From positions 13,837,337 through 13,901,336 of the forward strand of contig NC_087080.1 of the NCBI RefSeq assembly GCF_026151205.1: DNA of 64,000 nucleotides, written 5' to 3'. Position 1 is the stretch's first letter. Each line of letters begins with the position of its first letter. A program made the position numbers and the translations under genes. The DNA comes from Bolinopsis microptera (lineage: Eukaryota > Ctenophora > Tentaculata > Lobata > Bolinopsidae). Shown here piece after piece: positions 19,540 to 59,207 of this stretch. The notes below the pieces were generated by a model. It searched no databases. It saw nothing but the letters and a program-made list of their open reading frames with translations, and had not been told where the DNA came from.

Positions 19540-19585
19540 ATGCGAGTGTTGGCTTTCGCCACTTTTCTTCTTCTGGCACGATCAG
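19540..19585 (+). CDS. crb: crb exon 1: signal peptide
   Basis: An ATG followed by 14 codons rich in Leu/Ala/Phe (MRVLAFATFLLLARS) looks like a signal peptide, and the exon ends at a strong donor (G-GTATGT) in phase 1. The next supported exon, 13 kb downstream, starts in phase 1. It fits the receptor that needs a signal peptide, but no other evidence ties the two; an alternative first exon nearer 31.5 kb is possible. Confidence 0.65.

Positions 19586-59207: not shown

Follow-up and report, generated by a model that had tools for sequence, protein, structure and literature searches.

A probable Crumbs receptor with a CCP/EGF array in the ctenophore Bolinopsis microptera

Ctenophores have been reported to lack the Crumbs complex as a whole (PMC5968619), a statement repeated in PMC9729800. 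The question raised by the present locus is whether a ctenophore gene, whose predicted product starts with CCP and EGF modules and ends in a Crumbs-type tail, may nevertheless be a Crumbs gene. The locus lies within a stretch of 64,000 nucleotides from the ctenophore Bolinopsis microptera (NC_087080.1, positions 13,837,337 to 13,901,336, forward strand), designated below as the window and used as the reference for all coordinates given without a contig prefix. The phylum of the host is well supported by its glutamate receptors: with five pieces of them as a joint query against the PDB, the four best sequences were three of ML032222a, a receptor of Mnemiopsis leidyi, and 4zdm, from Pleurobrachia, and one of the host receptors is identical to ML032222a in 89 of 118 alignment columns.

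It appears from the sequence that this is one gene, likely encoding a single-pass Crumbs receptor in which a signal peptide is followed by six CCP modules interspersed with EGFs, an EGF-LamG-EGF-LamG-EGF-EGF region (LamG for laminin G), a transmembrane (TM) segment and a tail of 61 residues with a putative FERM-binding motif (TEGTYSP) and a class II PDZ ligand (ERLI). As such, it would probably be a ctenophore Crumbs that is new by its host as well as by its ectodomain. An initial annotation of the window had already placed a Crumbs tail on a receptor starting with a CCP/EGF array, and this is borne out by the splice phases, by a paralog uniting the CCP exons with the EGF/LamG exons in the absence of any large insertion, and by the similarity of the tail to a Crumbs tail of solved structure, as seen on alignment. 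The gene model, assembled from the raw window, spans positions 19540-59207 of the plus strand and comprises 20 exons coding for 1270 residues with a single terminal stop, all 19 introns of this final version being GT-AG with phases matching throughout. It should be pointed out that the assembly by hand from splice signals, prior to the comparison with paralogs, had yielded a model of 19 exons with 1236 residues, to which exon 11 (51179-51284) and a donor of exon 10 lying further 5' were added once two paralogs had revealed both. Twenty exons in phase and 1270 residues had also been proposed in the initial annotation, and the independent assembly arrived at identical counts with every phase matching. 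In the following list, "the paralog" is the close paralog L049 from the same chromosome (C9:8500980-8507510); L050, L053 and L054 are further loci with similar exons.

19540..19585, plus strand: exon 1, start codon and signal peptide MRVLAFATFLLLARS, ending in phase 1 (a scan of 15.0-32.6 kb gave four candidate loci, including this one)
32625..32846, plus strand: exon 2, CCP module 1 (Pfam; kept in the paralog at C9:8500980-8501201)
33193..33495, plus strand: exon 3, EGF and CCP module 2 (Pfam; kept in the paralog)
33612..33917, plus strand: exon 4, EGF and CCP module 3, a close copy of exon 3 (without counterpart in the paralog)
35109..35408, plus strand: exon 5, EGF and CCP module 4 (Pfam; kept in the paralog)
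35739..35969, plus strand: exon 6, CCP module 5, without EGF (kept in the paralog)
36271..36576, plus strand: exon 7, EGF and CCP module 6 (best Sushi stretch; kept in the paralog)
36722..36807, plus strand: exon 8, first part of an EGF module, ending in phase 0 (completed by exon 9)
36880..48745, no strand assigned: insertion or insertions of about 11.9 kb within intron 8, without counterpart in the matching intron of the paralog (blastn comparison)
48832..48977, plus strand: exon 9, remainder of the exon-8 EGF and another EGF (in order after exon 8 in L049, L050, L053 and L054)
49183..49329, plus strand: exon 10, EGF module (paralog comparison; weak donor gttggt)
51179..51284, plus strand: exon 11, start of the first laminin-G-like domain (by reading, L049 and L053 have a similar exon of identical phases)
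54080..54458, plus strand: exon 12, rest of the first laminin-G-like domain (open frame and splice sites kept in L049)
54579..54680, plus strand: exon 13, EGF module (Pfam; kept in the paralog)
54906..55028, plus strand: exon 14, end of an EGF and start of the probable second laminin G domain (kept in the paralog)
55301..55384, plus strand: exon 15, probable second laminin G domain (kept in the paralog)
55625..55770, plus strand: exon 16, probable second laminin G domain (kept in the paralog)
56006..56252, plus strand: exon 17, end of the probable second laminin G domain (RYKGCISKITVNG) and EGF (Laminin_G_2 below threshold in the three members scanned)
56476..56715, plus strand: exon 18, cysteine-rich EGF-like membrane-proximal module (kept in the paralog)
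58713..58859, plus strand: exon 19, transmembrane segment TIIVVVVVVAVVLGVVATIIIV and stop-transfer KKRR (hydropathy; similar TM exon in L053)
59062..59207, plus strand: exon 20, Crumbs-type tail GKTEGTYSPQAQEKDLEMS...NPNAERLI-stop (alignment to the fly Crumbs tail, PDB 4WSI_X)

Concerning the C-terminal part, the hydropathy scan of 56.7-60.5 kb revealed a single transmembrane helix, to which a similar exon exists in L053, and the tail following KKRR reads SGAGNGTTNGKTEGTYSPQAQEKDLEMSGKIDEGAEDPKNLYDDIDVIKNPNAERLI. With the fly tail deposited as "Protein crumbs" (PDB 4WSI_X/4YL8) as a reference, the local alignment to 4WSI_X pairs the segments TxGTYSPxAQE, LEM and ERLI at a score of 51, whereas 10,000 shuffled versions of the tail all scored lower (mean 19.5, highest 46). 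An exact GTYSP combined with an exact C-terminal ERLI would be expected by chance about 2e-6 times in 5000 TM proteins—an assumed figure—of standard composition. When all six frames of the window are considered, the sole occurrence of the loose pattern GxYxP...[ED][RKT][LI][IL]-stop is at this very tail. The terminal NPNAERLI-stop at 59207 fits the definition of a class II PDZ ligand (E/D-R/K-L/I-I/L), and the motif of the aPKC site, TxGTYx, is present as TEGTYS, a motif match. The initial annotation had taken GTYSP and ERLI for the FERM and PDZ ligands of Crumbs; the C-terminal ERLI stands as proposed, whereas the FERM-binding consensus RxxxGxYxPS is matched by KTEGTYSPQ in three of its five residues (G, Y and P).

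The ectodomain starts with a CCP module, which is followed by three EGF-CCP pairs, another CCP, one more EGF-CCP pair and three EGFs in a row; then come the LamG-like domain, an EGF, the probable second LamG, an EGF and an EGF-like module, before the TM segment and the tail. The order EGF-LamG-EGF-LamG-EGF-EGF-TM is that of the Crumbs ectodomain. In the Pfam scan, for which the 1236-residue version of the model was split into two halves, Sushi (PF00084) exceeded its cut-off with E 3e-15, five stretches being found for the six CCP modules at a lax limit of E 10, and the extracellular EGF repeats were likewise above their cut-offs (EGF 2.4e-10, EGF_2 1.2e-6). The six CCP-like modules mixed with EGFs had been described by the initial annotation as alternating; their number holds, strict alternation does not, CCP4 and CCP5 being adjoined. 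Exon 4 nearly copies exon 3, and the close paralog holds only one of the two. The first LamG-like domain, formed by exons 11 and 12, may be so called from its place between EGFs, its MYxAL start and its FVGYFGVISIDG end; a structure prediction of exon 12 alone had a mean predicted local distance difference test score (pLDDT) of 37.5, was unusable and was not used.

Several observations weigh against the identification as Crumbs. The Laminin_G_2 match in the window gene lies below the curated cut-off (E 0.013), and so do those in the same place of two paralogs (E 0.0082 and 0.0083), so that, of the domains the initial annotation had expected from a hidden Markov model search, Sushi and EGF were recovered above their cut-offs and laminin G only below. 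It is because the two paralogs give this match in the same place that the second LamG domain is regarded as probable. A profile of this domain with its EGF, run against the PDB, gave 71 sequences, the best 60 being mostly EGF matches, with neurexin-1 marginal at E 0.0075. The first LamG-like domain was not recognised by Pfam, and profiles of the two domains (exon 11 left out) showed no similarity to each other. As for possible partners of the tail, the L27 domain had only one genome match, presumably a Lin-7-like one, and the PALS1-type L27_N had none, the controls being equally silent and the result therefore uninformative. The tail is divergent, since a phmmer search with its sequence retrieved not a single PDB chain within E 10, not even that of the fly tail. 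The arginine and the final serine of the FERM-binding consensus are not matched, and the 61 residues counted from KKRR compare with 37 in the Crumbs tail and with the "less than 40" that PMC5968619 gives as a description, next to the Crumbs signature of a FERM-binding motif and a class II PDZ ligand. The TM and tail exons had no second genome match at E 10 in a search scoring only its best candidates; because the tail exon occurs once, no comparison is able to show selection on it. Moreover, a search of Mnemiopsis, Pleurobrachia and Beroe is reported to have found neither a gene nor a transcript with the conserved Crumbs cytoplasmic domain (PMC5968619). Finally, exon 1 is the least certain exon: phase is the sole support for its junction with exon 2, 13 kb away, and its hydropathy score of 2.68 is the lowest among four signal candidates (2.68-2.87). 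The locus at 19540..19585, single-copy in the genome, is preferred for being short and signal-like; the three other candidates remaining, at 17.0, 24.7 and 25.5 kb, were judged less signal-like or too long.

Elsewhere in the model, the donors of exons 10 (gttggt) and 11 (gttcgt) are weak, the former being the same in the paralog and the latter gttcgc there. An exact 47-bp tandem duplication at 49319-49412, not seen in the close paralog, spans the exon-10 donor and supplies a second donor 47 bp downstream, the use of which would shift the frame.

The alternative that survives best, while still unlikely, is that of a ctenophore immune or recognition receptor from a CCP/EGF/LamG family, with tail motifs that are convergent and not those of a Crumbs ortholog. 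Such a family does exist in the genome and the window gene belongs to it, the Crumbs tail being seen only on the window gene among these. Similar EGF-CCP exons also occur at C7:16740771-16766906, C5:18721769-18722765, C9:4684598-4686521, C9:1610750-1616933 and C9:7436892, three of these five areas having been read in part (L050, L053 and L054); in a Sushi search of the genome, the best 150 of 817 candidates were all on contigs C1-C13. No such tail is shown by L049, L050 or L053, nor did the genome search give a second one. Around the L049 copy at C9:8.5 Mb, neither the 8.7 kb on the upstream side nor the 10.6 kb on the downstream side gave a match to exons 1, 19 or 20, and the downstream side gave no strong TM segment either; on the upstream side, there is one signal-like candidate (C9:8495247). 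It may be that this copy is a partial one. The divergent paralog L053 carries CCP, EGF and LamG modules and, after its homolog of exon 18, a TM exon entered and left in phase 1 (by reading), like exon 19 of the window gene. It thus resembles the ctenophore EGF/laminin-like TM proteins without a Crumbs tail (PMC5968619), the reported existence of which also speaks for convergence, and it differs from the window gene in that a loose scan of the 7.5 kb beyond its TM exon found no frame in which an ERLI-like end comes after GxYxP, the single motifs there being GWFSP, GRYAP (twice) and EKVL-stop.

Convergence would further agree with the rate of change. The window gene and the C9 paralog differ by 4.6% in exons (141/3050 aligned bases, 15 exons) and by 3.8% in introns (100/2627; 11 of the 14 shared introns, three with insertions or copy differences being left out), the exon difference thus being no lower than that of the introns. 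The ratio of nonsynonymous to synonymous rates (dN/dS) is 0.985 on 1018 codons (bootstrap 0.70-1.46), or 0.89 on 1052 codons with exon 11 added (bootstrap 0.63-1.30), values that cover the duplicated exons, with the unduplicated tail outside their reach. Exon 12 has 13 nonsynonymous changes and 1 synonymous change. Against convergence stand the extent of the match, which goes past both motifs (TxGTYSPxAQE, LEM and ERLI) in the right order and after a stop-transfer sequence, the chance estimate for the motif pair, and the ectodomain order, which is that of Crumbs.

Somewhat less likely still is the acquisition of a Crumbs tail by exon shuffling onto an unrelated receptor, instead of inheritance of the whole gene. 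It would agree with the tail being one separate exon, entered in phase 1, and with L053 having the ectodomain and the TM exon, its tail not having been found; the genome search, however, yields no second source gene for the tail, and loss in the duplicates accounts for the pattern in fewer steps.

A far less probable reading, judged very unlikely, is that exons 1-8 code for a secreted CCP/EGF protein and exons 9-20 for a Crumbs-like receptor, the model having wrongly fused these two adjacent genes over the 12-kb gap between exons 8 and 9, where the phase also switches from 1 to 0 at exon 8. A genome query of 942 residues of the model (exons 1, 4, 5, 6 and 11 left out) gave 58 matches, among them a colinear set at C9:8500979-8507509. 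This is the paralog L049, which, exon 4 apart, has all of exons 2-18 in unchanged order and with the same splice sites; all 15 mapped exons (16 with exon 11) keep the splice dinucleotides and phases and are free of stops. By blastn, the window segments 32372-36879, 48746-49444, 51122-51289 and 54039-56790 match one compact C9 stretch in order, at about 92-96% identity. Exons 8 and 9 are only 180 bp apart in L049, with identical splice sites and phase, as compared with 12.0 kb in the window gene, and L050, L053 and L054 likewise keep the exon order across this junction. Moreover, joining exons 8 and 9 gives CECDATRGFKL-KEDDLNVCEEVTC, like the uninterrupted CECNDGYEKSDISDPRLCTLIQC of exon 3, and completes one EGF module. 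It is this conserved order, together with the completed EGF, that makes the two-gene reading so improbable; that exons 2-8 and 9-20 belong to one gene, as initially annotated, is accordingly upheld, L049 holding them together without the 11.9 kb. Within that insertion (36880-48745), there are a minus-strand open reading frame (ORF) near 39347-40061, which we take to be transposase-like, and a 54-bp inverted repeat at 40244/40876.

A decaying gene is just as improbable: the dN/dS close to 1 against the paralog and the large insertions within introns would suit a pseudogene, but there is no stop in 1270 codons of the window gene or in 1053 of the paralog, about 6 being expected from 141 neutral substitutions, and the exon lengths differ by 0 or by multiples of three (-6 in exon 7, -3 in exon 18), as compared with 13 indels in the 2627 aligned intron bases. 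Gaps of 6, 4, 3 and 1 in the base alignment of exon 7 are read by the protein alignment as one two-residue gap. The pattern rather resembles that of coding sequence whose amino acids have changed fast, be it in one copy or in both, or whose constraint has been relaxed in the copy; a dN/dS near 1 with open frames fits a fast-evolving receptor or a recognition role, being no proof of either. With regard to the surroundings, the flank at 475-11598 is rich in retroelements, with several reverse-transcriptase-like ORFs (labelled by reading), among which the one at 475 is near-identical to that at 9914, and the one at 7933 to that at 10921; a fragment of such an ORF, also labelled by reading, occupies 33922-34587 in the intron between exons 4 and 5.

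If the gene is indeed a Crumbs, its tail would anchor the receptor at the apical membrane, where GTYSP would bind an ERM protein, phosphorylation by aPKC possibly tuning that binding in view of the TxGTYx motif, and ERLI would bind a class II PDZ domain, e.g. of Par6 or of an MPP-type MAGUK. The C-terminal domain of ERM proteins (ERM_C exon) has one match in the genome and guanylate-kinase domains have 13. Since Par proteins have been reported in ctenophores (PMC7441587; PMC4476184) and Pals1 has been reported as missing (PMC5968619), Par6 seems the likeliest partner of ERLI. The CCP/EGF array would contact neighbouring cells or secreted ligands and may thus serve as a recognition face.

With Drosophila Crumbs and vertebrate CRB1-CRB2, the ctenophore gene shares the single TM segment and the C-terminal ERLI, and with the fly tail also TxGTYSPxAQE and LEM. 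In all of them, EGF modules alternate with LamG or LamG-like ones up to the membrane; fly and vertebrate Crumbs have three LamG domains, the ctenophore gene has two LamG-like ones and adds the six CCP modules on the N-terminal side. The Crumbs proteins of sponges and Trichoplax are, as non-bilaterian ones with a class II PDZ ligand and a FERM-binding motif (a putative one in the ctenophore gene), similar to it, those of Demospongiae even having the same number of matched FERM-binding residues (3/5), but their ectodomains are described as EGF and laminin-like, and the TxGTYx motif, found in bilaterian and partly in cnidarian Crumbs, is reported as absent from them (PMC5968619), in contrast to TEGTYS here. 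Extracellular CCP and EGF modules are also combined in the CTLD proteins with EGF and Sushi from Mnemiopsis (PMC11797021), LamG or a Crumbs tail being unmentioned in the available text.

As far as the literature is concerned, no ctenophore Crumbs was found reported in the open-licence papers searched, preprints and most subscription journals being outside that scope. Crumbs is described as animal-specific in one paper (PMC8061703), while another says that homologs were later found in some unicellular holozoans (PMC7147346). A ctenophore study from 2026, devoted to cadherin and catenin, corrects a different claim of absence, made in 2018, without using the word Crumbs in its available text (PMC13245172). 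The tail may have been missed earlier as a small exon far from recognisable domains, the alternative being loss in Mnemiopsis. On balance, it is rather likely that ctenophores have retained a genuine Crumbs ortholog, complete with its ERM/aPKC/PDZ tail, to whose ectodomain a fast-evolving CCP/EGF array has been added and whose relatives have multiplied to form a receptor family. If this is true, a Crumbs with a TxGTYx aPKC site would be no younger than the last ancestor shared by all living animals, which implies that sponges and placozoans have lost the site. The finding carries more weight than the initial annotation gave it, because the host phylum is one reported to lack Crumbs; that claimed absence (PMC5968619; PMC9729800) has been used to doubt the homology of ctenophore and bilaterian epithelia, and a Crumbs tail on a ctenophore chromosome would render the argument directly testable. 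The CCP array, for its part, would be an example of how a polarity receptor may have its outer half remodelled into what is possibly a surface for recognition.
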